Source: Deltaproteobacteria bacterium
GTDB lineage: Bacteria > Desulfobacterota > Desulfobacteria > Desulfobacterales > Desulfosarcinaceae
Assembly: GCA_021824175.1 (NCBI GenBank)
Contig: JAKALP010000020.1
Coordinates: 1 to 64,000 of the forward strand
Direction of reading: 5' to 3'
Length of the DNA: 64,000 nt
A program made the translations under genes and the position numbers. Every line of letters begins with the position of its first letter. The stretch's first letter is position 1. The notes beneath the pieces were generated by a model. It was not told where the DNA came from and did not search any database. It worked only from the letters and a program-made list of their open reading frames with translations. Below, piece after piece: positions 45,532 through 62,468 of this stretch.

Positions 45532-45592
45532 TCCAAAGAGTCGCTATATCAGCATTTTTTAAAGATCCAATTTATCAGTCATGGGAGGTAAC

Positions 45593-46156
45593 ATGCAACT
45601 CATCAAAGCAATGATCATTGCGGTTACGGCCTTTGTTTTGGCAATGGCCGCCGCACCCACCGGTTTCTGCGCGGATGTCGCCAAAATCGGCACGGTGAAT
45701 TTTCAAAAAATTTTTGAGAAATCCACAGCCGGCCAAGCCGCAAAAGAAAAAATCCAATCAGAAGGTCAACGCATGGAGCAGGACCTCAAGCAAAAAGGGG
45801 AAGAGATCAACGCCTTGGAAAAACGTTTATCTCAGGATTCAGGCACAGGCGTGATGAGCAAAGACGCCCATGAAGATAAACGCTGGGAATTGGAGCGTAA
45901 AATCGATGAAGTGAAGGCCCTGAAAAAGAAATATGACCGCCAGATCCAAGAGTTGCAGATGCAGGAAATCAACCAGGTACGCCAAAATGTGCTCAAGCTG
46001 ATCCAAGAATATGGAAAAAAAGAGGGCTATTTGCTGATCGTAGAGGATCTAACGGTGGTTTATGCCCCCCAGCAGCTCGACATTACGGATGTGATTATCA
46101 AACAATATAATGAACAATCCAAGCAAAGCGGCAAAGGCGCCGCGCCCAAAGGATAA
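45593..46156 (+). CDS. skp: OmpH/Skp family periplasmic chaperone
   Basis: Holds unfolded outer-membrane proteins for BamA. I start at ATG 45593 (187 residues) because GGGAGG lies just upstream, inside what would otherwise be a longer N-terminus from 45581. The signal peptide covers about 1-25 and ends near FCADVAKIG. The middle (about 35-135) is heptad-patterned coiled coil typical of Skp, and NVLKLIQEYGKKEGYLLIVE near 130 is the conserved C-terminal strand. The position bamA-skp-lpxD is conserved in Gram-negatives. Confidence 0.92.
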   Translation: MQLIKAMIIAVTAFVLAMAAAPTGFCADVAKIGTVNFQKIFEKSTAGQAAKEKIQSEGQRMEQDLKQKGEEINALEKRLSQDSGTGVMSKDAHEDKRWELERKIDEVKALKKKYDRQIQELQMQEINQVRQNVLKLIQEYGKKEGYLLIVEDLTVVYAPQQLDITDVIIKQYNEQSKQSGKGAAPKG

Positions 46157-46162
46157 GCTTTG

Positions 46163-47206
46163 ATGCCCGCAACCTTAGCGCAGCTGGCCCAGATGGTAGG
46201 CGGCCAATTGGCAGGAGATGCAGGTATCCTGATTGAGGACGCCGCACCAATTGACCATGCCGAGCGCATACATATTACCTTCGCCGAAAAGGGCCCCAGC
46301 CTCAAACGCATCCCACAGACCAAAGCGGGGGCGATTTTAGTGCCAATCGGCCACCACGAAGAAGACCGAAACCTAATCCAGGTGAAAAATCCGCGTTTGG
46401 CCTACGCTAAAATACTAGAATATTTTCATCCCCAAAGACTTCCAGCACCCGGCATTCATCCCTCAGCCGTGGTAGGCGATGGGTGCACGCTAGGATCAAA
46501 CGTCAGCATCGGAGCCGGGGCAGTGATTGGCGATCGCGTGACGCTCGCTGAGGGTGTGGTGCTCTACCCTCTGGTGGTACTCGGGGATGATGTCTCCATT
46601 GGCGATCATACCGTCATTTATCCCCATGTTACCATTCTTGAGCATTGCCGTGTCGGCCGTCGTTGCATCATTCACGCCGGCACGGTGATCGGCAGCGACG
46701 GTTTCGGATTTGTTCAGGATGGCGGCCGCCACCATAAAATCCCGCAAATCGGTATTGTCCAAATCGACGATGATGTTGAAATCGGGGCTAACAATACCAT
46801 TGACCGCGCCGGTTATGGCACCACCTGGGTTCAGTCCGGCGTTAAAACCGATGACTTGGTCCACCTCGGCCATAATGTCGTGGTGGGCGAACACACCCTC
46901 CTGGTGGCCCAGGTGGGGATTGCCGGCAGTACCACCGTCGGCCATCACGCCATCTTGGCTGGCCAGGCCGGTATTGCCGGCCATATCGCCATCGGTAATG
47001 AGGCTGTGGTGGGGCCCAAAACCGGAGTGGCCCATTCGGTGCCGGATAAGCAAATTGTATCTGGTGCCGTGCCAGCCATGCCCCACCGCACCTGGCTGCG
47101 CTTCACCCAAGTTTTGCCAGAACTGCCGGATCTGCAAAAAAAGGTGCGGCAGATGGAAGCGCGCTTGGCCCAATTGGAAGAACAATACTCCCTGAAGAAA
47201 GAATAA
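46163..47206 (+). CDS. lpxD: UDP-3-O-acylglucosamine N-acyltransferase (LpxD)
   Basis: Adds the second acyl chain to UDP-GlcN in lipid A synthesis, using acyl carrier protein. I start at ATG 46163 (347 residues) with AAGGA upstream; a TTG at 46160 is less likely. The N-terminal uridine-binding domain is followed by the left-handed beta-helix of hexapeptide repeats (about 100-320). HLGHNVVVGEH near 235 holds the catalytic His; the C-terminal helix completes the trimer. It is followed by fabZ. Confidence 0.95.
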   Translation: MPATLAQLAQMVGGQLAGDAGILIEDAAPIDHAERIHITFAEKGPSLKRIPQTKAGAILVPIGHHEEDRNLIQVKNPRLAYAKILEYFHPQRLPAPGIHPSAVVGDGCTLGSNVSIGAGAVIGDRVTLAEGVVLYPLVVLGDDVSIGDHTVIYPHVTILEHCRVGRRCIIHAGTVIGSDGFGFVQDGGRHHKIPQIGIVQIDDDVEIGANNTIDRAGYGTTWVQSGVKTDDLVHLGHNVVVGEHTLLVAQVGIAGSTTVGHHAILAGQAGIAGHIAIGNEAVVGPKTGVAHSVPDKQIVSGAVPAMPHRTWLRFTQVLPELPDLQKKVRQMEARLAQLEEQYSLKKE

Positions 47207-47218
47207 AGGAGCCGACCA

Positions 47219-47659
47219 ATGGAACTCCCAATGGATGTTCGAACCATCATGAAACATCTGCCCCACCGCTTTCCCTTTTTACTCGTGGACCGGATCTTGG
47301 AGATAGTGCCGGACCAAAAGATTATTGCATTAAAAAACGTGACCATTAACGAACCTTTTTTCCAAGGCCATTTTCCCGGCACTCCCATCATGCCTGGCGT
47401 GCTCATCGTAGAAGCCATGGCCCAGGCCGGAGGTGTTTTGGCCATGGCCTCCCAAGCCAATGCCAAGGAGGGAACATTGATGTTTTTCATGGGCTTGGAC
47501 CAGGTGAAATTCAGAAAGCCTGTGGTTCCGGGGGACCAGTTGATTATTGAAGTGGAAATACTAAAAAAACGCGCCAAGGTCCTCAAATTGGCTGGTTTAG
47601 CCAAAGTTGACGGCCAGGTAGTGGCCGAAGGCCAGCTCATGGCCACCTTCGAAGGATAA
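47219..47659 (+). CDS. fabZ: 3-hydroxyacyl-ACP dehydratase FabZ
   Basis: Hot-dog-fold dehydratase that supplies enoyl-ACP in fatty acid synthesis and competes with LpxA/LpxD for hydroxyacyl-ACP. The 146 residues hold LPHRFPFLLVDRI near 14 (catalytic His), FFQGHFPGTPIMPGVLIVEAMAQ near 46 (His and Glu), and the FRKPVVPGDQL segment near 100. AAAGGAG seven bases before the ATG confirms the start. Its place between lpxD and lpxA is conserved. Confidence 0.96.
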   Translation: MELPMDVRTIMKHLPHRFPFLLVDRILEIVPDQKIIALKNVTINEPFFQGHFPGTPIMPGVLIVEAMAQAGGVLAMASQANAKEGTLMFFMGLDQVKFRKPVVPGDQLIIEVEILKKRAKVLKLAGLAKVDGQVVAEGQLMATFEG

Positions 47660-47662
47660 AAT

Positions 47663-48433
47663 ATGATTCATCCAACTGCTATCATCAGCCCCAAAGCCCA
47701 TATCGATGAGGACGTCACCATCGGCCCTTATGTCATAATCGGCGATGAAGTCACCATCGGTGCCGGAACTGTTATCATGGGTCATGCCACTATTGATCCG
47801 TTCACTGAGATCGGCGTCAAATGCACCATTTTCCAGTATGCATCCGTGGGCGCACAGCCTCAGTCCTTGAAATATAAAGGCGAAAAGACCTGGACCAAAA
47901 TCGGTGCCGGTACAACTATCCGAGAATTTGTGACCATCAATCGTGGCACGGAATCAGGCGGTGGCGTGACTCAAGTCGGCGACAACTGCTTTCTAATGGC
48001 CTACACTCATATTGCCCACGACTGCTCGGTGGGGCGCAATGTGGTGATGGCCAACGCCGCCACTCTGGCGGGCCATATCACCATTGGCGATCACGCCATC
48101 ATTGGCGGACTTACAGCCATTCATCAATTCGTACGGGTGGGCAACTATGCCATGGTGGGAGGCAAATCGGCCGTGGTTAAAGATATCCCACCTTATGTGA
48201 TCGCAGCAGGAGACCGGGCCAGCTTGCACGGGTTGAACCAGGTTGGGTTAAAACGCCATGGTTTTTCCGCTGCGGCGGTATCCCAACTGAAAAAGGCCTA
48301 CCGCTTGATCTTTCGCATCGGGTTGACCCTCAACGAAGCCATTGAGCGCGTGACGGCGGAGGTGGAGCAGATCCCGGAAGTTAAGTATTTTATCAATTTC
48401 ATCAAATCGTCAGAACGCGGCATCACGCGTTGA
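47663..48433 (+). CDS. lpxA: UDP-N-acetylglucosamine acyltransferase (LpxA)
   Basis: First committed step of lipid A synthesis: transfers a hydroxyacyl chain to UDP-GlcNAc. The 256 residues form a left-handed beta helix starting MIHPTAIISPKAHIDEDV. Catalytic His is in AYTHIAHDCSVG (near 112-123); GNYAMVGGKSAVVKDIPPY near 163 shapes the acyl pocket. The C-terminal helices are complete. It starts three bases after the fabZ stop. Acyl-chain length specificity cannot be read here. Confidence 0.96.
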   Translation: MIHPTAIISPKAHIDEDVTIGPYVIIGDEVTIGAGTVIMGHATIDPFTEIGVKCTIFQYASVGAQPQSLKYKGEKTWTKIGAGTTIREFVTINRGTESGGGVTQVGDNCFLMAYTHIAHDCSVGRNVVMANAATLAGHITIGDHAIIGGLTAIHQFVRVGNYAMVGGKSAVVKDIPPYVIAAGDRASLHGLNQVGLKRHGFSAAAVSQLKKAYRLIFRIGLTLNEAIERVTAEVEQIPEVKYFINFIKSSERGITR

Positions 48434-48456
48434 TTCTGTCAAACAGTAGTGTACCC

Positions 48457-49275
48457 ATGTCCAATAAAATCGGACTCATCGCCGGCAACGGTCAGTTCCC
48501 GATTCTGTTCGCCCAAGCCGCTCGCAAAAAAGGGTGGCAGGTTCACGCGGTCGCTTATCATGGTGAGGCCAATCCTGACATTGCACAGCATGTGGAGAGT
48601 CTGGAGTGGCTCTATATTGGGCAAGTCAAGAAGCTGATCAATTTCTTCCGGCGCAAAGAGATCAGTCAAGCAGTGATGATCGGGGGCGTCACCAAAACCA
48701 AAATGTTTACCAATGTGCGGCCCGATATTAAAGCCATTGCCTTTATCGCCAGCATGCGCCACACCCATGATGACGGTATCCTGCGCGCTTTTGCGGACTT
48801 GCTGGAAAAGGAAGGTATCAGCATCAAAGATTCGACTTTCTTGATCCCAGAATTATTAGCCCCGGCGGGCGTCTGGACCGCACGCAAGCCTTCGCGTACC
48901 GATCAAGATGACATCCGGCTGGGCTGGAAAATCGCCAAAACCATTGGCAGCTTGGATATTGGACAGTGCGTAATCGTGGGAGGCGGCACAGTTTTGGCTG
49001 TTGAGGCGATTGAAGGCACGGATGCAGCCATCACCAGGGGCGGCAATTTGGGCAAAGGCCAAGGGGTGGTCGTCAAGGTATGCAAACCTAACCAGGACAC
49101 CCGATTCGACATTCCAGCGGTCGGGCTGGGCACGATTGAAACCATGTTCAAAGTCCAGATAAAAACCTTGGCCATCGAAGCTGGTAAAGCGGTAGTTTTT
49201 GATCGGGAGGCCATGGTCGCGAAAGCCAATCAGTACAGCATGACCATAGTGGCCTTAGAAGAAGGTCAAATTTGA
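48457..49275 (+). CDS. lpxI: UDP-2,3-diacylglucosamine pyrophosphatase LpxI
   Basis: Hydrolyses UDP-2,3-diacylglucosamine to lipid X and UMP, the alternative to LpxH in many Alphaproteobacteria and Desulfobacterota. I start at ATG 48457 (MSNKIGLIAGNGQFPILFAQ, 272 residues); a TTG at 48430 overlapping the lpxA stop is another option. Visible: IGQVKKLINFFRRKEISQAVMIG near 48, the DDGILRAFADLLEKEG segment near 104 and GTDAAITRGG near 188 with the metal-binding Asp. It is the DUF1009 family. Confidence 0.93.
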   Translation: MSNKIGLIAGNGQFPILFAQAARKKGWQVHAVAYHGEANPDIAQHVESLEWLYIGQVKKLINFFRRKEISQAVMIGGVTKTKMFTNVRPDIKAIAFIASMRHTHDDGILRAFADLLEKEGISIKDSTFLIPELLAPAGVWTARKPSRTDQDDIRLGWKIAKTIGSLDIGQCVIVGGGTVLAVEAIEGTDAAITRGGNLGKGQGVVVKVCKPNQDTRFDIPAVGLGTIETMFKVQIKTLAIEAGKAVVFDREAMVAKANQYSMTIVALEEGQI

Positions 49276-49316
49276 AGTCCCCGGAAATTCCTTAGATTTG
49301 GTTTGAATTAAAATCC

Positions 49317-50306
49317 ATGACAAAAAACACAACAGAGTCAGTCCGCGATGGACGCAAATTACGGGTTGGTGTGATAGGTGTTGGATACCTGGGCAAATTT
49401 CATGCGCAGAAGTATGCTCGCATGACCGATGTGGACTTGGTCGGCGTGGTGGACACCAACATTGAGCAAGCCCAGGAGGTAGCCCAATCGGTTAATGCCC
49501 AAGCCTATACCGATTACCAGGAGCTTCAAGGCAAGGTGGATGCGGTCAGCGTAGTGGTCCCAACGGCTTTTCACTACCCTATTAGTCAGTTTTTTCTCAC
49601 CCATGGGGTGGATGTATTGATTGAAAAGCCCATGACCGCTGAACTGAATGAGGCCAACGCACTGATCCAACTCGCGGAGAAGCACAATTGCATCCTCCAG
49701 GTCGGCCACTTGGAACGCTTCAATCCGGCGGTCCTGGCCTTGGAAGGCATTGTGAACCAGCCCCTATTTATCGAATCCCACCGCCTGAGCCTCTTCAAAG
49801 AGCGCGGGCTGGATGTCAGCGTGGTTTTGGACTTGATGATCCATGATATTGATATCATCTTGAATTTCGTTCAATCCCCCGTCAAATCGATCCACGCCGC
49901 AGGTATTCCCGTGATCTCCGGCAATGTGGATATTGCCAATGCCCGTCTTGACTTTAATAATGGCTGTGTGGCTAACGTAACCGCCAGCCGCATCTCCATG
50001 AAAACTGAACGCAAAATCCGGCTGTTTCAAAAGGATGCCTATATTTCCGTCGATTTTGCCAAGCATGAAATCACCATAGTTCGACCGGACGGCCAGGCCC
50101 CCCATGGGGTGATTCCGGGCATGGCCATTGAACAAAAAGCATTTGCTAAAGCCGATGCACTGGATGATGAACTCAAATCCTTCGTGCACGCCGTGACCCA
50201 TCGAGAAGCACCAGAAGTGACCGGCCAAATGGGGCGCAATGCACTACAGATCGCCCTAGACATCATGGACCAGATTCAACGCTCCAAAGAGCGCTTACTC
50301 CACTAA
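49317..50306 (+). CDS. Gfo/Idh/MocA family oxidoreductase
   Basis: NAD(P)-dependent sugar dehydrogenase-type protein of 329 residues, found in many lipid A operons beside lpxB. Rossmann GVIGVGYLGKFHAQK near 18 and the EKPMTAELNEANALI motif near 103 (conserved Lys-Pro) define the family; MIHDIDIIL near 178 carries the conserved His/Asp. A known relative, GnnA, oxidises UDP-GlcNAc for 2,3-diamino lipid A, but its partner aminotransferase GnnB is not in this window. The substrate is therefore uncertain. Confidence 0.82.
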   Translation: MTKNTTESVRDGRKLRVGVIGVGYLGKFHAQKYARMTDVDLVGVVDTNIEQAQEVAQSVNAQAYTDYQELQGKVDAVSVVVPTAFHYPISQFFLTHGVDVLIEKPMTAELNEANALIQLAEKHNCILQVGHLERFNPAVLALEGIVNQPLFIESHRLSLFKERGLDVSVVLDLMIHDIDIILNFVQSPVKSIHAAGIPVISGNVDIANARLDFNNGCVANVTASRISMKTERKIRLFQKDAYISVDFAKHEITIVRPDGQAPHGVIPGMAIEQKAFAKADALDDELKSFVHAVTHREAPEVTGQMGRNALQIALDIMDQIQRSKERLLH

Positions 50307-50323
50307 CGGACGAAAAGCACTTC

Positions 50324-51460
50324 ATGGAACCTAAAACCATAGTTATGATTGCCGGTGAAGCGTCGGGCGACCTGCACGGCGCCCATGTGGTGCAGGCCTT
50401 AAAGAAACGGCAAAGCAACCTGTTTATATGCGGGATGGGAAGCCAGGCCATGAAAGCGGCCGGCGCCAAGGTGGTCATTAGTGCCGATGAATTGAGCGTG
50501 GTGGGAATTACCGAAGTATTCTCCAAACTACCGCAAATTATCAAAGCCATGCGCCGCCTCAAACATCTTTTGACCAGTTTGAAACCCGATCTGCTGATCC
50601 TCATCGATTTCCCGGATTTCAACTTGCATTTGGCAGCTATCGCTAAGAAATTGGGTATCCCGGTATTGTATTATATCAGCCCCCAAATCTGGGCGTGGCG
50701 GCAGGAACGGGTGAAAAAAATTAAAGCCAGGGTCGATCATATAGCTGTAATCCTGCCTTTTGAAAAAGCATTCTACGAGCGCCACCAAGTGCCAGTGACA
50801 TTTGTGGGCCATCCCTTAATGGACGCTTTGGCTGCCAGGAGGCCGAGTCACTGCACCCCACCGGGGCAACAGGCAGAGGTAGTCGTGGGGCTGTTGCCAG
50901 GATCGCGCCAGCGCGAAGTGAGCAACCTTTTGCCCATCATGATTGAGGCTGGCCGCGTCTTGCAGTCTCGGATGCCGACCGTGCGCTTGATAGTTTCATG
51001 CGCCCCTACCATTGAGCCCCAGTTAGTCCAAAAAATTTTGGATCAACATGCCGTTAAGAATATCAGCATCTCCAACGCGCCAGTGGAAACCATGCTGGCT
51101 GGTTGCCATGTGGCCATAGTCGCATCCGGGACCGTGACGCTGGAGGCCGCGATCTGTGGTGTTCCCATGGTGATAATCTACACGGTTTCTCCTTTAAGCT
51201 ACTGGCTTGGCCGCAAATTGATCAATGTGGCGCACATCGGTTTAGTTAATCTCATCGCCCAGCAGCGCATTATGCCTGAACTGGTTCAAAAGGAAGCCAC
51301 TCCTGATGCGATTCAGGAAGCAGTTTATGCCTTTTTGAATGACCCGAAGAACTATGGACAGGCATGCCGTGATTTAACTGTGGTCAGAGAGCGCTTGGGA
51401 TTACCCGGTGCTTCCAACAAAGTGGCGCATATCGCCTTTTCGCTGATGGGAGGAGAGTAA
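50324..51460 (+). CDS. lpxB: Lipid-A-disaccharide synthase (LpxB)
   Basis: GT19 enzyme that joins lipid X with UDP-2,3-diacylglucosamine to form the lipid A disaccharide at the inner leaflet. The 378 residues begin with MIAGEASGDLHGAHVV near 7 and contain YYISPQIWAWRQERVKKI near 122, VGLLPGSRQREVSNLLP near 189 and VASGTVTLEAAICGVPMVI near 265. It follows the oxidoreductase by 17 bases; length and motifs are typical. Confidence 0.96.
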   Translation: MEPKTIVMIAGEASGDLHGAHVVQALKKRQSNLFICGMGSQAMKAAGAKVVISADELSVVGITEVFSKLPQIIKAMRRLKHLLTSLKPDLLILIDFPDFNLHLAAIAKKLGIPVLYYISPQIWAWRQERVKKIKARVDHIAVILPFEKAFYERHQVPVTFVGHPLMDALAARRPSHCTPPGQQAEVVVGLLPGSRQREVSNLLPIMIEAGRVLQSRMPTVRLIVSCAPTIEPQLVQKILDQHAVKNISISNAPVETMLAGCHVAIVASGTVTLEAAICGVPMVIIYTVSPLSYWLGRKLINVAHIGLVNLIAQQRIMPELVQKEATPDAIQEAVYAFLNDPKNYGQACRDLTVVRERLGLPGASNKVAHIAFSLMGGE

Positions 51461-52873: not shown

Positions 52874-52913
52874 AAAAAATGAGGACCCAAGTCGTTCATT
52901 TGACTTGGGTCCT
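52874..52913 (-). terminator. Bidirectional transcription terminator
   Basis: A perfect 12-base stem (AGGACCCAAGTC at 52882-52893, GACTTGGGTCCT at 52902-52913, eight-base loop) lies between the convergent lipid A operon and the surface protein gene. On the minus strand it is followed by T-rich sequence (CATTTTTTT), so it best terminates the minus-strand gene; it may also act weakly on the plus strand. Confidence 0.8.
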
Positions 52914-52948: not shown

Positions 52949-54484
52949 TCATTTTCTACCATACACCCAATGTTGGCGATAGCGTAAAACTCCCAACAGC
53001 AGGGCGAGGGTCCCACAAATCCAGACATTTAATGTTCTGGATGAAGCGGCCAGGCCATTATCGGAATCAAGAGAGACACCAATGAAACAGCCTGAGGAAG
53101 CCGCGCCTTGAGGCTGATAGGTTGTGGGGCCAGAGTCCTGACCGCTGCCGCTGTTATACCCTAGCCCCGACGGATCCACGATGATGCCGTTTTGCACGCC
53201 ATCTTCATCCCCCTCCCCGCCATCTTCCAGCGTCAGGGTCACGGACTTCCGATCGGCACTGAATGTCGCATGGGTAAATTCCACCCAGCCTTGATCTGGA
53301 TCATATTTATACCAATGGGCATTTGCGGGCGCGGGCTGTGAGAAGTAAACTACGACCGTGGCTGTTGTGACATTGTTGAGCAGGGTGAGCTTAAAGCTGA
53401 TCAGACCGGTCAAGTTCTCCGGACGGTTGTCCTCCGCCGGCAAGCCATCTTCTTCGAGAGCACGTACTCCCATAATCTGGATATTGCTGTTCAATCGTTT
53501 AATGGCCATTTGCGGGCTAAATGGATCATGGGTATTGACCCCCTCCAGTCCTGATTGCAAGGTATCAGCAGTACCGTTATGATCGAGATCAACCCCAGCG
53601 TTCAATTCCTGATCATCCAAAATACCGTTTCCATTCGCATCGCCAGCGGCTTCAGCGCTTTCAGTGATAAAAGAGAATACTTCGGACCATTCCGATGCGC
53701 CATCGCGGCTGTCAATGAACTTAACCCGCCAATAATAGGTTGTGTCGGCATCAAGAATCAATTCGGAAAGCTGAAGCTGGGTCAGATGAAGCGCCAGGGT
53801 CCGGTCATAGACCAGGTCGGAAAAATCCGCCGTGGTGCTGATCTGATATTGGGTCCGGGCATGGGTATCACTATCCGTGTCCGAATAATCGCCGACTTGC
53901 AGTATTGGCGTCACATCGACATTTTGGGAGCCGTTCGCCGGCGCAATTAAAATCGGCCTTCCTGGAGAAGTGTTGCCAGGCACCTGAGTATGGCCCGGAT
54001 CCGGTGTCGGAACAGGCGTCGGTGTTGGGGTTGGTGCAGGCCCCGGTGTAGGCGTCGGCGTAGGCCTCGGTGTAGGTGTAGGCCTCGGTGTGGAGGTTGG
54101 TGTGGGGGTTGGTGCGGGCGCTGGCGCTGGAGTCGGTGTAGGCGTCGGCGTAGGCGTTGGAACAGCCAGTGTAAATGTCACCTCATTGGAATCACCGCTC
54201 TCATCCGACCCCTGATAAGCGCGTACCACATAATAATAGGTCGTACCGGCGCTCAAATCATTGAGGGTACATGTCGTCTGAGAACCACTCCATTTCGGCG
54301 CGCTGTAATTGTAAGCTTGGCCGGCGGCCCGCTGATACAAGCGATAACCGGATGGGGTGGGGCTATTGGCATCCCATTGCAAGGTGACTTGAGCAGCGGA
54401 AGCAATCAAGGGGAAGGTAATCAGCAGATAGATTCCCGCTGATATAAGAAGTTTGATCCAAACATGGCGTGATTCGTTCTTCAT
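52949..54484 (-). CDS. Surface-anchored protein: FN3, Pro/Thr linker, choice-of-anchor U domain, C-terminal anchor
   Basis: A 511-residue exported protein. Signal peptide is about 1-31; a fibronectin type III domain covers about 31-107; a Thr-Pro linker runs to 165; a second Ig/FN3-like domain follows (about 172-278). An EF-hand-like Asp/Asn-rich stretch [16 protein letters not shown] is near 284. The segment near 355-455 ([36 protein letters not shown]) matches the choice-of-anchor U domain. It ends with SGCF, one membrane helix and basic residues, a sorting-signal pattern. It lies behind a c-di-GMP-I riboswitch. Ligand and function are unknown. Confidence 0.85.
53990..54163 (-). repeat. Low-complexity Thr-Pro linker repeat within the surface protein
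   Basis: About 58 codons encode alternating Pro with Thr, Ala or Arg, giving a GTCGGTGTAGGC-like degenerate repeat on the plus strand. Such tracts are length-variable by slippage. On the plus strand it generates long spurious open frames, which I do not regard as genes. Confidence 0.75.
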
Positions 54485-54542
54485 GACATCTCCTGATTCA
54501 TTCTACGCCGGCGAATGACGTCAGGCTGATTGTGATGTCGTC

Positions 54543-54645
54543 ATCACCCGGCAACCCTGCTACCTTATCCGATCAATAAGTTCAGGACTTAGGCCAGTGG
54601 CTTTGCGTCTCACCCTTTCGGATGATTTGCCTTTTTCGAGCAAAC
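54543..54645 (-). promoter_or_regulatory. Cyclic di-GMP-I (GEMM-I) riboswitch
   Basis: On the minus strand the conserved pattern is plain: AAAGGCAAATC, a CATCC-GAAA-GGGTG hairpin, GAGACGCAAAGCCACTGGCC, CTAAG and, after a variable loop, AAGGTAGCAGGGTTGCC. The outer stem TTTGCTCG/CGGGTGAT pairs. The GGC before AAA appears to keep the G expected for c-di-GMP rather than the A of cGAMP-preferring variants, by my alignment. It lies about 60 bases ahead of the surface-protein ATG, whose ribosome site AGGAG is close to a further small inverted repeat (ATGACG / CGTCAT) that may serve as expression platform. Confidence 0.9.
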
Positions 54646-54839
54646 ATTAAAAGAACAATAAAACTCAAATACCAGCATGGGTTTAGCAACTAACATGCCA
54701 CAACGGGTTCAAAACCGATCAAAATAATTCTAATAATACCGAATAATTAAACATAAAATGGATGCAAAGGGCTCTATCCAAAAGAACATCGCCTATGCAA
54801 GGTATAAATATATCCACACCAAAGCTGTACAATCGTATA

Positions 54840-54998: not shown

Positions 54999-56585
54999 TC
55001 AGGGAGCCGTGGCACGGACATCGACTGAATTCGCGGGTGGCACCCAACGCAAGCCCCCTTTGAATCCATAACAACGATAAATGTAGAGCGTCTTGAATGG
55101 TGTCTTCTTCGCGGCCGCGCTATCCCACAGATTGGATCGAAAAATATTGAATGCTTCAGGGGCATCTACCCGCTCAAATACTTCTAATAGCCTCTCTCGG
55201 CTATGGTCATCGAAGTGAACTCCAACGGCATCATAGCCGAGTAGATCTTTATCCTGCCACCAATAGTCGTAGACATTGGGACGGGTCCAACGGTTAATGG
55301 ATACGGTATAGGGCTGCCCTGGCACGTAGAATGCCAATTCACTAGCGATTTGATAATGCAGCCCAAAAAGGAATAGCGAATTCTGATTGGGCATTTCCGC
55401 CCGAATCTGTCCAACCCTCTGCCCTAGAAGATCCCAGCCTTGAATTTCGTCGGCTGCTCGATCCAAATGGGCAGGAACAGGCAAGAAACCGAAAAGCACA
55501 TGGCCGAGCAACAGAGCGGTCAATAGATATGAACTTCCAACCGTCCACTTCCAAATTTCGCGAGTTGATCCTATCGAAGAAGCATATTCTTCTGTCGCAG
55601 AGTTATTCGAAGATGAAAAGAAAGTAGTCGCCAATAGAACCGCTGTGACATATCCGACCCCGGGCCAGTTGCCATACACCCTGCTGTGTAAGCTCAGAAT
55701 GCCAAACCCCGCAATTACTGGAAAGGAAGTAAAGAAAAGATAGCGTGACACCCACTCTTCTTTTGAATAACGGCCTCTGATCGCTTTAAACCAACCGGCG
55801 CACACTATTAAGAATACTAAAGGGGTCAGCAGGGCGGCTTGTGACCCCAAATATTCTATCAAAAGGTTCGGGTGTAGAACAAAGCCTTGATTGGCGCCGC
55901 CAATATAGGCCACATGGCGTACCGAATTCCAATGATGCGCGGCATTCCAGACTATGACGGGAACAAACATGGCAACACCAAATGCACACCCAAGATATGG
56001 TCTGACGCCGGCCATTCGCTGTCGATGTATATTGGTAAACAAGGCATAGGCCAAAATGCAAGGAAGGAAAAGAACCATCGTGAACTTGCTGAGCATTCCA
56101 AGGCCAAACCATACACCGCCCAGTAGCCAGTGACGCCATTGATTGTCTTCAAAGGCCCGGGCGGCGTGGTAACTGGCTCCGGCCCAGGCGGCGGCCTGAA
56201 TGCCGTCCGGCGTGGCCAGCAATGCACCGATATTAAACAGCAAGATGGATTGACCGAGTAACGTCGCCTGCCATGCCAAACGAGCACTCAACCAACGTTT
56301 GGCAAGGGAAACGATATAAACCGAGGCAATCGTCAGAGCGATGATGGAAGGCAGCCGTACGGCCGCTTCGGTTTGCCCAAATAGCCAAGTGGTCAGATGG
56401 ATCGCCCAGGCAATCAGGGGCGCCTGATCATGGTACCCCCAATCCAGATGACGCGCCCATTGCCAGTAATTGGTTTCATCGGGCACCAATAAAAATGATT
56501 GGGCATAAAAAAAACGCGCTAGGGCACCAGCTCCGATAAGTAACCAGCACAGTTTTATCCATCGTGTATCATTGGAAGCAAGCAT
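54999..56585 (-). CDS. ArnT-like membrane glycosyltransferase (PMT family)
   Basis: A 528-residue membrane protein with about 10-12 helices of the GT39/GT83 superfamily. The acidic motif is in LVPDETNYWQWARHL near 33, then WGYHDQAPLIAWAI near 49 and EAAVRLPSIIALTIA near 73. It differs from the other ArnT-like gene at 20147 and is not a close duplicate. It would move a sugar from a polyprenyl-phosphate donor to a periplasmic acceptor, possibly the surface protein or pilin; this is inference from proximity. It is 31 bases after the histidine kinase gene. Confidence 0.8.
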   Translation of the reverse strand: MLASNDTRWIKLCWLLIGAGALARFFYAQSFLLVPDETNYWQWARHLDWGYHDQAPLIAWAIHLTTWLFGQTEAAVRLPSIIALTIASVYIVSLAKRWLSARLAWQATLLGQSILLFNIGALLATPDGIQAAAWAGASYHAARAFEDNQWRHWLLGGVWFGLGMLSKFTMVLFLPCILAYALFTNIHRQRMAGVRPYLGCAFGVAMFVPVIVWNAAHHWNSVRHVAYIGGANQGFVLHPNLLIEYLGSQAALLTPLVFLIVCAGWFKAIRGRYSKEEWVSRYLFFTSFPVIAGFGILSLHSRVYGNWPGVGYVTAVLLATTFFSSSNNSATEEYASSIGSTREIWKWTVGSSYLLTALLLGHVLFGFLPVPAHLDRAADEIQGWDLLGQRVGQIRAEMPNQNSLFLFGLHYQIASELAFYVPGQPYTVSINRWTRPNVYDYWWQDKDLLGYDAVGVHFDDHSRERLLEVFERVDAPEAFNIFRSNLWDSAAAKKTPFKTLYIYRCYGFKGGLRWVPPANSVDVRATAP

Positions 56586-56616: not shown

Positions 56617-57927
56617 TCAAGCGGGTTTGCCCGACCTCTTGAGAGCAAAAGAAACCGTTGTCCCGAAACCTGGCTTGCTTTGGACATCCAAGCGGCTGTT
56701 ATAGGCCTCTAATATCCGATGAACGATGGAGAGCCCCAATCCCGTGCCCTCTGATTTGGTGGTAAAAAAAGGGTCAAAGATGGATTGCACACTTTCAGGC
56801 GCTATGCCGCAACCACTGTCTCGGACAAGGATGATCACTTCATTATTTTTCGCCCAAGCCATCTGGATTTCAATGGCGCCTTCGCCTTGGATGGCCTCGG
56901 CGGCATTTAGCAGTAAATTCCACAACACTTGGCTTAGATGGCTTGGATCCATAAGCACATATACATCTGGGATAAGTATTTTCTTTAATGTGTGCCTCCG
57001 ACCATGCTTTTTATCTTTTTCAAACAGGCCAACAATTTCTTCGATGGATTTGCTAAGCTCTAAAATCTTCGGTTTGCCGGCAGGTGGCCTGGCAAAAAGC
57101 AAAAAGTCATTGACGAGCGTGCTCAAACGGTCGGTTTCACGCAAAATGATTTCCATCAAGCGTTGGTGGTCTGAATCATAGCGCAGATCCTCCCGCAGAA
57201 GCTGAATGGACCCTACCACAGAAGCCAATGGATTTTTAATCTCGTGGGCCAAGCCGGCTGCCATCTCACCCATGTAGGCCATCTTTTCTACGCGTTTGAC
57301 GTGGCTCTCCATGGCTCGCAGCTCACTCTGGCTTTTGCGGTTCTGTTCGGTCAATAGCCCACTCAAAACCGCAACGGCAAAACATGCGGAAGCAGTAATC
57401 AGGACCTTATTTAAAATCTCGATATTATTGATTCCAGACAAGCTACTGATATTACCTATGATCACCGATGGAAGATAAGCATAATACTGGAACACTACAA
57501 TCAACGCATATTGCAGGCTGCTCAGCAAAGCCATCCATAGACCGCCCTTCATATATGCAATCATGCTGGCATATATGATGATGACGATATAAAGGAAGGT
57601 AAATAAACTAAAATACCCTCCTGAAATGAAGACTATTAAAGAAATGATAATCGAATCAAATACGAGCTGAACATATACAAAAAGTCTTTGATAGACAAAC
57701 AGCTTAAATAGATTTGTAGATAATAAGGAAAGCAGAAACGAAGCGCTAATAAATAAATAGATTGCCAGCCATACCATATCCAGTGCGGCATCTGAAAAGC
57801 GATAGTGTGCAACAAATGTAGCGCAAAGTAGAATAATAGTGAAAAAAATACGGACGAACACCATCCACTTTAGCTTTGAATGAATGTCCGATTCAAATGA
57901 TTGGCTGCTGATAGATAATGAATGCAC
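56617..57927 (-). CDS. PilS-like membrane histidine kinase
   Basis: Sensor kinase of 436 residues. Six hydrophobic segments occupy about 20-192, without a HAMP or PAS domain, as in PilS. The H-box GLAHEIKNPLASV places the phosphorylated His at 228; the N-box NLLLNAAEAI is near 345, G1 DSGCGI near 375 and G2 GTGLGLSI near 398. PilS normally controls pilin transcription through PilR; no pilR follows here. It is co-directional with pilC (170-base gap) and with the ArnT-like gene. Confidence 0.82.
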   Translation of the reverse strand: MHSLSISSQSFESDIHSKLKWMVFVRIFFTIILLCATFVAHYRFSDAALDMVWLAIYLFISASFLLSLLSTNLFKLFVYQRLFVYVQLVFDSIIISLIVFISGGYFSLFTFLYIVIIIYASMIAYMKGGLWMALLSSLQYALIVVFQYYAYLPSVIIGNISSLSGINNIEILNKVLITASACFAVAVLSGLLTEQNRKSQSELRAMESHVKRVEKMAYMGEMAAGLAHEIKNPLASVVGSIQLLREDLRYDSDHQRLMEIILRETDRLSTLVNDFLLFARPPAGKPKILELSKSIEEIVGLFEKDKKHGRRHTLKKILIPDVYVLMDPSHLSQVLWNLLLNAAEAIQGEGAIEIQMAWAKNNEVIILVRDSGCGIAPESVQSIFDPFFTTKSEGTGLGLSIVHRILEAYNSRLDVQSKPGFGTTVSFALKRSGKPA

Positions 57928-58096: not shown

Positions 58097-59308
58097 TTAG
58101 CCTCCAACCGCTCCAGCCATTTTAAATATCGGTAGGTACATCGATACAACTAATCCACCGATCACAATACCTAAAAATATTATCATTACCGGTTCGATCA
58201 TTGAAGTGAGGTTTTCTACAGCCTGATCCACTTCTTCATCATAAAAATCTGCTATTTTTTCCAGCATGGCATCCAATGCGCCCGTGGATTCCCCTACGGC
58301 TATCATCTGACATACCATAGAAGGAAAGACACCGCTGGCTTGCAGCGGATCAGCCATGGTACGTCCTTCGGCAATGCCGCTGCGGACATTGTATATAGCA
58401 GTTTCTATGATGCGATTACCAGAGGTCTTAGCTACGATATCTAGTGCTTCTAGGATTGCCACGCCGCTGCCGAGCATGGTCCCCATAGTGCGGGTAAATT
58501 TGGCTACGGCTACTTTTCGTAGTAATATCCCAAACACAGGCAGCTTGAGCATCACAGAGTCAACCACTGTTCTTCCTTTGTTGGTTTTATAATATTGACG
58601 AAAGGCGATTACAAATAAAATAATAGCAATGAATATCCAATGAATTTTAGACTTGACAAATTCACTGATAGCAATGACCACAAGAGTAGGTGCTGGTAGC
58701 TTTGACCCAAATTCAGCAAACATCTTTTGAAACACTGGAATTACAAAAACGAGGATGATAGCAACCACACCAACCGCAACGGTGATTGTAATAGCCGGAT
58801 ACACCATTGCGCCTTTGACTCGGCGTTTGAGCTTGGCCGCTTTTTCCATATAGCCGGCCAATCGCTTTAAGATGACATCCAGAATACCACCGGCCTCACC
58901 AGCAGCGATCATATTGACAAACAAATTGTCGAAGTGTTTGGGATATCGTTTCAGCGCATCGGCCAGCGTCGAACCCGCCTCGACCTGATCCTTCAAATCT
59001 TTGAGCATCTTTTTGACCGTCGGGTTCTCTTGTTGAGCCTGGAGGATATCCATGCATTGAATGATCGGCAATCCGGCATCAATCATCGTGGAAAATTGCC
59101 GGGCGAATATGATAATGTCTTTTTCTTTAACTTTGGGCTGGAGAAAGGCAACGCCTTCGAATAGATCCTTTGGCTTCTTTTTTACCTTTGTGGGAACGAT
59201 ACGAATCCTACCGAGATGGGCCCGAACCGCCTCTTCATTGGCCGCTTCCAATTGGCCTTTTTGGATCTGGTTGTTTCGATTCTTTCCTTCCCAAAGAAAA
59301 ACCGGCAT
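58097..59308 (-). CDS. pilC: Type IV pilus inner-membrane platform protein PilC
   Basis: GspF-family platform protein that, with the PilB and PilT ATPases, drives pilus assembly. I start at MPVFLWEGKNRNNQIQ (59308, 403 residues) because GGGAGA lies five bases upstream; the open frame extends to 59410 without a ribosome site. Two GspF domains are present (about 65-190 and 265-390), with VFARQFSTMIDAGLPI-type and FTRTMGTMLGSGVAILEAL motifs, and three membrane helices. pilB, pilT and pilA are not in this window. Confidence 0.93.
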   Translation of the reverse strand: MPVFLWEGKNRNNQIQKGQLEAANEEAVRAHLGRIRIVPTKVKKKPKDLFEGVAFLQPKVKEKDIIIFARQFSTMIDAGLPIIQCMDILQAQQENPTVKKMLKDLKDQVEAGSTLADALKRYPKHFDNLFVNMIAAGEAGGILDVILKRLAGYMEKAAKLKRRVKGAMVYPAITITVAVGVVAIILVFVIPVFQKMFAEFGSKLPAPTLVVIAISEFVKSKIHWIFIAIILFVIAFRQYYKTNKGRTVVDSVMLKLPVFGILLRKVAVAKFTRTMGTMLGSGVAILEALDIVAKTSGNRIIETAIYNVRSGIAEGRTMADPLQASGVFPSMVCQMIAVGESTGALDAMLEKIADFYDEEVDQAVENLTSMIEPVMIIFLGIVIGGLVVSMYLPIFKMAGAVGG

Positions 59309-59741
59309 AGCACTCTCCCTATCTGTTTGTGCATCACCTAGTCTGTCTAATAGAAACGCAACGCTCTTTTTTGTCGTAATTTTAGTACCATAAACTACAA
59401 CAAACGACAATAGATTTATTTAATTAGATTTTTACACTGCAGGCCCAAATCCGAGAGCCAGCAGGATTCTAACAAGCAAATTTCATACCGGATCTATATT
59501 TCTTATTTTATGCCTCTTGCCGGCCTTCTTGCCTCCCGAGTTGTGACCTTTTGTATAACCCTGGCCGTTACATTTGTGTTTAAGGTACAACCCAACAGAT
59601 AAAAACGACAACGACAAAACCATCATCGACTCAAATGTCGACAATAAGCCTCCCTTCCCCTGGGCATTTGAAAAGCCCAAACACCTTGCCAAAACTAATG
59701 CTTCTATGTAAGAGTGAGCACCAGCGACATCGGCTATAAAT
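59309..59741. other. Divergent gap between pilC and the DHH-CCA gene
   Basis: About 430 bases. A minus-strand frame around 59483-59692 could encode a small Lys-rich protein with one hydrophobic helix (MMVLSLSFLSVGLYL, then KKAGKRHK); a GGGAGG lies before a possible TTG start near 59650. Evidence is weak and I do not call a gene. Promoters for pilC and for the DHH-CCA gene should lie here but are not clear. Confidence 0.3.
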
Positions 59742-62468
59742 ATGGAAACCTCAATGCCTCGTTTGCAACCCAGCGCTCAAATCACACGGTCAAACCGCAA
59801 GGGTCTCACAGTCATTACCACCCACTTAAACGCAGATTTTGACGCTCTAGCATCTTTATTGGCGGCCCAGAAACTTTACCCAGACGCCTTGGTGGTCTTT
59901 CCCGGTTCGCAGGAAAAGAATTTACGTAATTTTTTTATCCAATCCCTCGTCTATCTATTCAACCTTGCAGAAATTAAGGACATCGACCTTAAATCAATTC
60001 GGCGCCTCATTCTGGTGGATACCCGCCGAGCTGACCGCATTGGCCGCTTGGCCGAAGTCCTTGACAATCCAGACATCGAAATCCATGTCTACGATCATCA
60101 TCCCATCAAAAGTGATGATATCCAAGGCCATCTTGAGATCCATCGCATCACGGGTGCCACGGTAACGCTACTGACAGAAATTCTACGAAAAAAAAGATTG
60201 CGAATTTCGGCCGAGGAAGCCACCATCATGTGCCTGGGTATCTATGAAGACACGGGGGCTTTCACCTTTGCTTCCACTACGGCCGAAGACTTTGAAGCCG
60301 CGGCCTTTCTCGTCTCCAAGGGCGCCAGTATCACAGTAATCGCAAACCTCATTTCCCGGGAGATTAGCCCGGAGCAGATTATTTTTTTAAATGACCTGAT
60401 CCAGTCCGCCACCCGTTATGTAATCAATGGCATTGAGATCGTAGTGGCCACCGCCACCTTTGATCAATATCTGCCTGACTTTGCTTTCCTAGTCCATAAA
60501 ATGGTCAAAATGGAAGACATCAACGCCATCTTTGCCTTGGCCATGATGGAAAATAAGGTCTACATCGTGGGCCGCAGCAGAACAGGTGATGTGGATGTGG
60601 GCGAAATTCTGAGCAACCTCGGCGGTGGGGGGCATCCCACGGCGGCGGCGGCCACCATCAAGGGGCAAACCATAACCCAGGTAGAACAAACTCTACTCCA
60701 CGAAATCAAACGCCAAGTCAAAGGATTGCGTCGCGCCCGCCAGTTGATGTCATCACCGCCGATTATGGCCGATGCCCACATTACCTGTGCTGAAGCCAAT
60801 ACCCTGTTGACCCGGTACAACATCAATGCGCTATTGATCACTTCCAATGATGACGCCCCATCTTCACTTGTAGGCTACATCACACGACAGGTGATCGAAA
60901 AATCGATCTATCACAACCTTGGACATGTGCCGGTGGCCGATTATATGACGACCGAGATTGTTACGGTAGCGCCTGAAGCAGAGCTGACCGAAGTTCAAGA
61001 AAAAATTATCGGTCACAAACAGCGTATTTTACCGGTGATTGATAACGACAAAATCATTGGAGTGATCACTCGCACGGACCTTCTCAACATTTTGGTCCAA
61101 CACTCCCAATTGACCTCAGACCGCTCACCAGATCCATATAAGATTACGGCCCCAAAGAAAAGACGGGATATTTCCAACTTCATGCAAGAGAGATTATCTC
61201 GCAGGGTATTGGAAACGTTGCACGCCGTGGGAAAGGTGGCGGATGAACTGTCTTTTGGTGCTTATGTGGTCGGCGGATTCGTGCGCGACCTGTTTTTATA
61301 CCGAGCCAACGAAGATATCGATATTGTGATTGAAGGCGACGGCATTGCATTTGCCAAGGTATATGCTCAACGGCACAATGCCCGTCTTCACACCCACAAA
61401 ACCTTTGGCACGGCGGTCATCATTTTTCCGGATGGTTTCAAAATTGACGTCGCCAGTGCACGCACGGAGTATTACCGCTTTCCCGCCGCCCTGCCCGATG
61501 TGGAGATGAGCTCTATCAAATTAGACCTTTTCAGGCGCGATTTTACTATCAACACTCTGGCTATCCATCTCAATGCCGGAAGGTTCGGAAAACTGATTGA
61601 CTTCTTCTCAGCCCAAAAAGATATCAAAGATAAAGCCATCCGGGTCCTACACAATCTGAGTTTTGTCGAAGACCCCACCCGCGTCTTCCGGGCCATCCGC
61701 TTTGAACAGCGTTTTGGCTTCACGATTGGCAAGCTTACCGCCAGTCTGATTGAAAACGCGGTCAAAATGGATTTTTTCAAACGCCTCAGCGGCCGCCGGG
61801 TGTTTGCTGAAATCCGTCAGCTGCTCGAAGAAGAAAATCCAACTCCAGCTATTTCCAGGATGCGCGATTTCAATCTGCTTAAAGTGATTCACCCCTCCAT
61901 CGTGCTGGATAAAAACCTGATGGAATTGCTTCACACCGTGAAAAGCGTAATCTCCTGGCACGATCTTCTATTCACTGAAGAACCTTACATGCGTTGGGGC
62001 GTCTATTTCATGGTCTTAATACGTGCTTGTGATTCAGATATCTCGCGGGAAATTTGCAGGGCAATGGAGCTCCCCCCCCGCTTGGAGCAGTTGTTTTGCA
62101 AACACCGCTTTGAGGCCCAGAATTGTGTATCTCAGATGGAACTGAAGTTACCCACCACCAAACACGAACTATACCACTTATTGAATGAATTCCGTACGGA
62201 ACAGATCCTCTTCATGATGGCGGTCACTCGCTACAAATCGGTTAAAAAAGCCATCTCCAATTATTACACCCAACTGCGCAACATTCAGCCGATAGTTGGG
62301 GGTCAGGATCTCATTGCCATGGGATTGAAACCCGGACCGCGGTTCAGTCAAATCCTGGCCGCCGTGCGAAATGAGAAGCTTAACGGTCGTCTTGAAACTC
62401 GTGAAGATGAAATTCAATTTGTTCACTATTTACTGCAGACGCCTTCAACAAACGAAACTGTCAGATGA
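59742..62468 (+). CDS. DHH - CBS - tRNA nucleotidyltransferase fusion
   Basis: A 908-residue protein with three parts. The N-terminal DHH phosphoesterase domain has HLNADFDALAS near 28-38 and the DHHA1 glycine loop NLGGGGHPTAAAAT near 292. Two CBS repeats follow (about 320-460; AEANTLLTRYNINALLI, then VADYMTTEIVTVAPEAELT). The C-terminal polyA-polymerase/CCA domain (about 490-900) has GGFVRDLFLYRANEDIDIVIEG near 508 with catalytic DID, and LDLFRRDFTINTLA near 590. It resembles A-adding tRNA enzymes of Desulfobacterota that work with a separate CC-adding enzyme. Confidence 0.92.
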   Translation: METSMPRLQPSAQITRSNRKGLTVITTHLNADFDALASLLAAQKLYPDALVVFPGSQEKNLRNFFIQSLVYLFNLAEIKDIDLKSIRRLILVDTRRADRIGRLAEVLDNPDIEIHVYDHHPIKSDDIQGHLEIHRITGATVTLLTEILRKKRLRISAEEATIMCLGIYEDTGAFTFASTTAEDFEAAAFLVSKGASITVIANLISREISPEQIIFLNDLIQSATRYVINGIEIVVATATFDQYLPDFAFLVHKMVKMEDINAIFALAMMENKVYIVGRSRTGDVDVGEILSNLGGGGHPTAAAATIKGQTITQVEQTLLHEIKRQVKGLRRARQLMSSPPIMADAHITCAEANTLLTRYNINALLITSNDDAPSSLVGYITRQVIEKSIYHNLGHVPVADYMTTEIVTVAPEAELTEVQEKIIGHKQRILPVIDNDKIIGVITRTDLLNILVQHSQLTSDRSPDPYKITAPKKRRDISNFMQERLSRRVLETLHAVGKVADELSFGAYVVGGFVRDLFLYRANEDIDIVIEGDGIAFAKVYAQRHNARLHTHKTFGTAVIIFPDGFKIDVASARTEYYRFPAALPDVEMSSIKLDLFRRDFTINTLAIHLNAGRFGKLIDFFSAQKDIKDKAIRVLHNLSFVEDPTRVFRAIRFEQRFGFTIGKLTASLIENAVKMDFFKRLSGRRVFAEIRQLLEEENPTPAISRMRDFNLLKVIHPSIVLDKNLMELLHTVKSVISWHDLLFTEEPYMRWGVYFMVLIRACDSDISREICRAMELPPRLEQLFCKHRFEAQNCVSQMELKLPTTKHELYHLLNEFRTEQILFMMAVTRYKSVKKAISNYYTQLRNIQPIVGGQDLIAMGLKPGPRFSQILAAVRNEKLNGRLETREDEIQFVHYLLQTPSTNETVR

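Follow-up and report, generated by a model that had tools for sequence, protein, structure and literature searches.

In a 64,000-nucleotide stretch of DNA from a member of the Desulfosarcinaceae (hereafter, the window), a c-di-GMP-I (GEMM-I) riboswitch aptamer precedes a gene for a probably exported protein that ends in a Cys-Phe-Ile (CFI) motif, a hydrophobic segment and a basic tail. Judging by sequence comparisons, the aptamer and the gene are orthologous across the bacterial family. We lean, with moderate confidence, towards a model in which this canonical riboswitch controls translation of the CFI-tailed protein from a sigma-54-driven transcript and turns it OFF when c-di-GMP is bound. 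The riboswitch class is known; the added value lies in a conserved circuit, which joins a sigma-54-like promoter, the aptamer, a leader that can hide the Shine-Dalgarno (SD) sequence and an exported CFI-tailed protein.

The aptamer and its ligand contacts

The aptamer occupies positions 54546–54641 on the minus strand. A sequence-only reading of the window had quoted GEMM-I motifs at this site, all of which were found on the minus strand, and the covariance-model check that it proposed bore out the assignment: the Rfam c-di-GMP-I model RF01051 matches upstream of the gene at 80.5 bits, above its cut-off of 35 (E 6.7e-16 in a search of the window's own genome). The element is thus a real c-di-GMP-I aptamer by model score and alignment. 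It has a GAAA-capped P2 hairpin, reads G20, G21, C46 and A47, and has C92 by alignment. The residue register was set by the 21–46 pair: of 113 family aptamers, 62 have GC here and 45 have CG. Contact numbering follows Vc2 as given in passages of two papers (PMC4744006; PMC7288161). According to these passages, the ligand contacts of Vc2 are G20, A47 and C92 (PMC4744006), the contacting nucleotides include C46, A47, A48, A49 and G50, and a G20A mutant is able to bind cGAMP (review, PMC7288161). The window aptamer has the canonical contacts G20/A47/C92, and c-di-GMP is therefore its predicted ligand. Natural cGAMP switches (GEMM-Ib) carry A20; the window has G20, which supports c-di-GMP over cGAMP as the ligand.

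Rfam's automatic choice was a different family. At gathering thresholds, the whole-window scan, which omits one overlapping same-clan match with a lower score, reported a single match, labelled c-di-GMP-I-GGC (RF03167; 54546–54640, minus strand; 69.3 bits, cut-off 59, E 2.6e-14). We take "GGC" to denote residues 20/47/92. In the own-genome search, RF03167 again reached 69.3 bits with an E-value of 5.7e-16, a near-tie with RF01051 by E-value, and RF01051 outscored it by 11 bits. The alignment places a G at the A47 equivalent of the GGC model consensus (GACGCGAA), whereas the window has A (GACGCAAA); in our own reading this G is the defining letter of RF03167. As the G of the GGC model is missing from the window, the automatic label was rejected and the aptamer was filed under canonical c-di-GMP-I. 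Membership in a subclass with an altered ligand, either c-di-GMP-I-GGC or the cGAMP-type GEMM-Ib, and recognition of a different dinucleotide are improbable. Such a subclass would agree with the best family in the Rfam scan and with the presence of another aptamer with A at position 20 in the same genome, but not with the A47 equivalent, the higher RF01051 score at near-tied E-values, or the G at position 20 in all 25 orthologous leaders.

The putative surface protein, its neighbours and the conserved pairing

The gene behind the aptamer (52949–54484, minus strand) encodes a 511-residue protein. The fibronectin and choice-of-anchor U assignments of the sequence-only reading were confirmed, with both domains above model cut-offs: choice_anch_U (NF041766; residues 359–442, positions 53159–53410, minus strand) scores 96.8 bits against a cut-off of 32, and fibronectin type III (fn3; residues 31–104, 54173–54394, minus strand) 33.6 bits against 25. 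The fn3 stretch also matches Pur_ac_phosph_N (43.5 bits, cut-off 30), and the protein further matches Ig_Rha78A_N (30.5 bits, cut-off 27.4). It contains one N-terminal and one C-terminal hydrophobic segment. The latter (residues 484–500; 52985–53035, minus strand) follows the tail motif C466-F467-I468 (53081–53089, minus strand) and is itself followed by a net-positive tail. These ends are shared by the orthologues: all 25 have a hydrophobic segment near the N-terminus, the invariant Cys and Phe, and a second hydrophobic segment after the Cys-Phe(-Ile) motif; Ile follows Cys-Phe in at least 90% of them, and the C-terminal tail is net-positive in 20. The window protein is probably exported and held at the envelope by its C-terminal tail. 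On the 3′ side of the gene lies a terminator-like hairpin of 12 pairs with a T tract (52882–52913, minus strand); the scan that found it is not significant on its own, because two such sites occur in the stretch against a mean of 2.0 in shuffles.

RF01051 was searched in 30 Desulfosarcinaceae genomes and is present in 28 of them, with 115 matches, one below the cut-off; the family aptamer set with flanks comprises 113 of these, the two omitted both coming from genome G022. An aptamer accompanies an orthologue of the window protein in 25 pairs from 22 of the 30 genomes, and the link between riboswitch and exported-protein gene, which had first been drawn at this one locus, recurs in most of the genomes searched. 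The orthologues are 35–51% identical to the window protein; all match choice_anch_U (E ≤ 0.01) and Ig_Rha78A_N, and 23 match fn3. Letters 20–21/46–47 of the paired aptamers read GG/CA in 25 of 25. Outside the family, an aptamer was present at 5 of the 20 related-protein loci scanned (of 30; several stretches end short of the gene start), three of the five coming from one genus. A comparison of the window protein with named genomes gave four distant loci and no near relative.

Gene order around the aptamer–gene pair is partly conserved. The gene for lpxB or an adjoining glycosyltransferase is found on the 3′ side in 20 of 25 fetched stretches. Among eight same-genus loci with an upstream flank, the upstream gene encodes a PilS-like kinase in six and a PMT_2 protein in two, one of which is the window. 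Here the PMT_2 glycosyltransferase-like gene (54999–56585), which the sequence-only reading did not mention, lies between the riboswitch and a histidine kinase gene (56617–57927, minus strand) with a PilS-like 6TM domain (PF25323, 43.7 bits, cut-off 27); a PilC-like gene lies at 58097–59410. The pilC and PilS-like neighbours had been put forward in support of a link to attachment. Both genes are there, but pilC alone is a weak sign of attachment, and the kinase is more plausibly read as a gene that may feed the sigma-54-like promoter described below than as proof of attachment. Also in the window, a lipid A biosynthesis cluster adjoins the surface-protein gene (45581–51460; lpxD, fabZ, lpxA, lpxI-like and lpxB, named from reading the translations), and lpxB is near this gene in 16 of the 25 fetched stretches. 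A large protein encoded at 59742–62468 scores 973 bits with an A-adding tRNA nucleotidyltransferase model, below the cut-off of 1440.

The proposal that the product is a surface protein for attachment fared unevenly. The pairing of the probably exported protein with the riboswitch stood, while the adhesin role stays conjectural: of 32 solved sequences (PDB) matched by the family profile, 31 match over the fn3 stretch, and one is thrombospondin-1. The protein might still act in attachment or surface contact. The CFI_box_CTERM model (NF041770; cut-off 40) had no match in the window protein at E ≤ 0.1, nor at this gene's place in a genome-wide search. A tail-alignment search of seven genomes also retrieved other proteins ending in Gly-Gly-Cys-Phe-Ile (GGCFI) plus a few residues, among them subtilisin-like and M6-type proteases. 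The GGCFI codon pattern occurs 13 times in the window's own genome, compared with once for the backward control; six of the 13 occurrences close a longer Gly-rich reading frame, four to five residues after the Ile, and seven do not. The CFI motif thus resembles an independent tag, one that ends other proteins too and whose GGCFI pattern exceeds its backward control. Six exported-looking proteins of the own genome (L222, L223, L224, L229, L233 and L234) combine a Gly-rich stretch with Gly-Gly-Cys-Phe-Ile and four to five further residues; their tails are without a hydrophobic anchor and may form a short sorting tag.

The leader and the promoter-like site

The distance from the aptamer to the start codon is 62 nt in the window and 52–66 nt in all 25 pairs. 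Leader alignment and folding place the P1 helix of the aptamer between GCTCG (54637–54641) and CGGGT (54546–54550), both on the minus strand, as are all leader features below. Two further helices can be drawn. An anti-SD strand, GACATC (54534–54539), pairs with GATGTC (54485–54490), which stands right before the start codon and meets the SD sequence AGGAG (54490–54494). An anti-P1 hairpin joins a 5′ strand, CCGGGTGATGACG (54539–54551), which incorporates the C92 equivalent together with the 3′ side of P1, to a 3′ strand, CGTCATTCGCCGG (54508–54520), whose commonest form in the family is TCGCACGG.

These helices were evaluated in an alignment of 23 leaders (L072 and L076, identical to L071 and L075, were left out), with the caveat that kinship can lift related sequences above shuffles without structure. 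P1 is 98.3% paired. The anti-SD helix is paired in 85.4% of cells and has 18 cells changed on both sides, values that none of 500 shuffles reach, and its best slid register is 56.8% paired. Two-sided changes fall in six of its nine pairs, a count reached by 34 of 500 shuffles; one further measure is weak, being reached by 127 of 500. In 11 of 23 rows the outermost pair does not form, and the window itself makes seven of the nine pairs. The anti-P1 element, which usually reads TCGCACGG, can pair with C92 and the 3′ side of P1 (93.2% paired, at most 42.2% when slid). It has two two-sided changes, both in L062, and its degree of pairing is equalled by 28 of 500 shuffles; its covariation is thin because the columns are so conserved. 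The leader may thus form either of two structures that would exclude each other, one with the aptamer formed and one with the SD open; computation supports the anti-SD helix well and the anti-P1 helix moderately.

Folding calculations relate these structures to the SD. In partial transcripts, anti-P1 is favoured over P1 in 21 of 23 leaders by a median of 5 kcal/mol; the cost of keeping P1 exceeds that of about 95% of 40 shuffles in only seven of the 23, and that of the window leader is matched by 7 of 40. Of four SD bases, a mean of 3.8 are paired with P1 formed compared with 1.4 with anti-P1. Among full-length leaders free of ligand, 22 of 23 already favour the state with P1 formed and the SD hidden; an ON state would therefore need co-transcriptional folding. 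For the window leader, 0.5 kcal/mol separates the two forced states. Its fold of lowest energy, when unconstrained, is the anti-P1 state, and SD opening drops from 0.43 to 0.23 once P1 is imposed; in most leaders SD opening differs little between the free and the P1-forced ensembles, in a set that was confined to GGC/GGT aptamers, skipped seven without a recognised SD, P1 or anchor, and had a wrongly picked start codon for L138. A terminator scan was negative for the stretch from the aptamer to the start codon, and a transcription-terminator platform was set aside on these grounds. We conclude with good confidence that the leader acts by translational control, as far as its modelled structures indicate. 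Because the anti-SD helix hides the SD and the anti-P1 helix competes with P1, translational repression by c-di-GMP is predicted, and we judge this OFF direction somewhat the better bet.

A less probable, though appreciable, alternative is that the same riboswitch is an ON switch, in which c-di-GMP raises protein synthesis; P1 would then promote the inner part of an antisequestering hairpin, so that the SD remains accessible. Induction by c-di-GMP is common among surface proteins, and the better SD-hidden fold of 22 of 23 full leaders without ligand would suit a switch that the ligand opens. There is also a precedent in Vibrio cholerae, where, as passages of one study describe, the Vc1 riboswitch positively regulates gbpA (PMC4744006). 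Against an ON switch stand the greater SD pairing with forced P1 than with forced anti-P1, the fall in SD opening when P1 is imposed on the window leader, and the fact that the conserved complement of the P1 3′ strand is part of the SD-open state. Should one expect c-di-GMP to raise the expression of an adhesin, the leader structure predicts the opposite, namely OFF.

Upstream of the aptamer, a sigma-54 promoter-like site, GTGGCATGTTAGTTGCT (54685–54701, minus strand), lies 43 nt before it. The site agrees at 11 of 13 fixed positions, including GG and GC, with the sigma-54 consensus of the TGGCAC-N5-TTGC type and is equalled by none of 200 mononucleotide shuffles. We scanned 112 of the 113 family aptamers (one with less than 100 nt upstream was left out) for sites within 150 nt upstream, requiring GG and GC and a match at 10 or more of the 13 positions. 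Of the 112 aptamers, 53 have such a site: 20 of the 25 that accompany this protein, 22 of the 35 further G20-G21 aptamers, 9 of the 45 C21 aptamers and 2 of the remaining 7. As controls, the reverse strand yielded no site and the downstream side one among 112, with a mean of 1.7 and a maximum of 4 in shuffles. Five of the 25 group leaders lack a site of at least 10/13, and L045 and L048 lack any. The own genome contains one sigma-54 gene and two PilS-like membrane domains, one of which is the riboswitch neighbour; a scan of 10 further proteins, a part of those encoded in the window, revealed no enhancer-binding protein. From the site we infer sigma-54 use at this promoter and a transcript start.

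In the model that we favour, sigma-54 RNA polymerase and an activator of the enhancer-binding type, which might receive its signal from the PilS-like kinase close by, would start the transcript about 33 nt before the aptamer. At low c-di-GMP, the P1 3′ strand would pair with the downstream anti-P1 element, and the resulting hairpin would trap the anti-SD strand in its loop, so that the SD stays open and the protein is made. Binding of c-di-GMP would hold P1 and block the anti-P1 hairpin, leaving the anti-SD strand to capture the SD region and switch translation OFF. The protein would be exported by its N-terminal signal, and the CFI motif and hydrophobic tail would hold it at the envelope. If the OFF direction is true, these surface proteins would mark a free-living or first-contact state rather than mature biofilm, which reverses the usual reading. 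That the aptamer is instead decaying or unlinked, with control of the gene lost, seems very improbable: the two missing anti-SD pairs in the window would fit decay, but the pairing with the gene is retained in 22 of 30 genomes at a narrow spacing, the leader helix covaries and the sigma-54-like site is kept.

Other family aptamers and known systems

To describe the wider aptamer set, the longest ORF starting within 700 nt of each aptamer was taken as the downstream protein. Apart from the orthologues this gave 88 frames, of which the 81 of at least 120 residues were scanned. Pfam models (E ≤ 1e-4) matched GGDEF in 11, PocR in 9 and fn3 in 13 proteins; a PEP-CTERM-type NCBIfam model matched at most 16 (E ≤ 0.01) and the Pfam PEP-CTERM motif 4. 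The class counts are approximate because of the longest-ORF choice and the simple patterns used, with at least five exported fn3 proteins left in the class "other". PEP-CTERM-like ends occur downstream of aptamers at L055, L064, L077, L088, L093, L106, L116 and L121; L077 has two aptamers 0.8 kb apart with a PEP-CTERM-like gene after each.

A second aptamer of the own genome (L101; C31:64583–64660) is of the C21-G46 type and lies upstream of a GGDEF-ended protein with a PocR-like start, as judged by eye, which points to a possible feedback loop. By sequence pattern, 11 such pairs occur in 11 family genomes. The third aptamer (L059; C34:219619–219715) is of the A20 type and is followed by a small helix-turn-helix-like reading frame. 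A at position 20, as in cGAMP-type aptamers, is found in 5 of the 113 family aptamers, of which L059, L145 and L078 are well formed and L119 and L154 poor; in L145 and L078 a T tract directly adjoins the aptamer 3′ end, which hints at a terminator-type platform. A fourth match in the own genome (C55) was taken as chance (16.9 bits, E 0.6).

Eleven aptamers (L130, L134, L135, L140–L142, L144, L146, L148, L060 and L079) stand upstream of fn3-fronted exported proteins without a CFI tail. Seven of these loci have a sigma-54-like site of at least 11/13, and by eye the group has an SD-complementary stretch of different sequence. Tentatively, and with slightly more doubt than belief, we propose a single two-lock regulon in this family. 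It would take in a large set of exported proteins, both the CFI-tailed fn3/choice_anch_U proteins and others with an fn3 front, together with some diguanylate cyclases; sigma-54 would start the transcript and c-di-GMP, through the GEMM-I riboswitch, would decide on translation, the CFI-tailed proteins being low-c-di-GMP surface factors. Such a role would be unexpected for putative adhesins. More broadly, c-di-GMP riboswitches seem to serve the family as a coordinated level of control, frequently behind sigma-54-like promoters, over orthologous tail-anchored surface proteins and diguanylate cyclases, the latter as a possible feedback loop.

The protein tail resembles the MYXO-CTERM/myxosortase tags in having a motif with an invariant Cys, a hydrophobic helix and a basic tail, as these tags are described in passages of one paper (PMC11980579). 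The window protein and its orthologues differ from MYXO-CTERM in their motif, Cys-Phe-Ile after Gly/Ser, and the MYXO-CTERM model TIGR03901 is absent from the 12 families matched by the 25 orthologues. CFI_box_CTERM (NF041770) shares the Cys-Phe-Ile near the C-terminus; the window protein differs from it in being unmatched by the model and in having a hydrophobic segment after the motif.

Compared with the RF01051 class as a whole, the aptamer shows no difference: it agrees in model score, in the contacts G20/A47/C92, in a GAAA-capped P2 and in its 5′ leader position. What sets this group apart is its anti-P1/anti-SD leader, together with the sigma-54-like promoter. In the riboswitch literature that we consulted we found no sigma-54 link or leader of this kind, and no report of choice-of-anchor proteins with a riboswitch. 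A comparable arrangement occurs in Methylophaga strain GP59. There, c-di-GMP riboswitches lie upstream of PEP-CTERM, VPLPA-CTERM and thrombospondin genes, and transcript levels differ between biofilm and planktonic cells, according to passages of the study (PMC12530212). Riboswitches of this kind ahead of sorted surface proteins are thus already published elsewhere, as those passages attest, and GP59 is like the window in having a c-di-GMP riboswitch beside C-terminally sorted or adhesion-type surface proteins; organism and proteins are different, and the passages contain neither a leader mechanism nor sigma-54 (PMC12530212). The Geobacter GEMM-Ib riboswitches share the GEMM-I class and, as passages of two papers describe, control surface structures such as cytochromes, pili and polysaccharides, but they bind cGAMP, whereas the window has G20 (PMC8835794; PMC6456294). 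Vc1/gbpA likewise places a c-di-GMP-I aptamer upstream of a secreted surface-binding protein; unlike the window as we read it, Vc1 is described in the passages as an ON switch, and GbpA is an unrelated GlcNAc/chitin-binding protein (PMC4744006).
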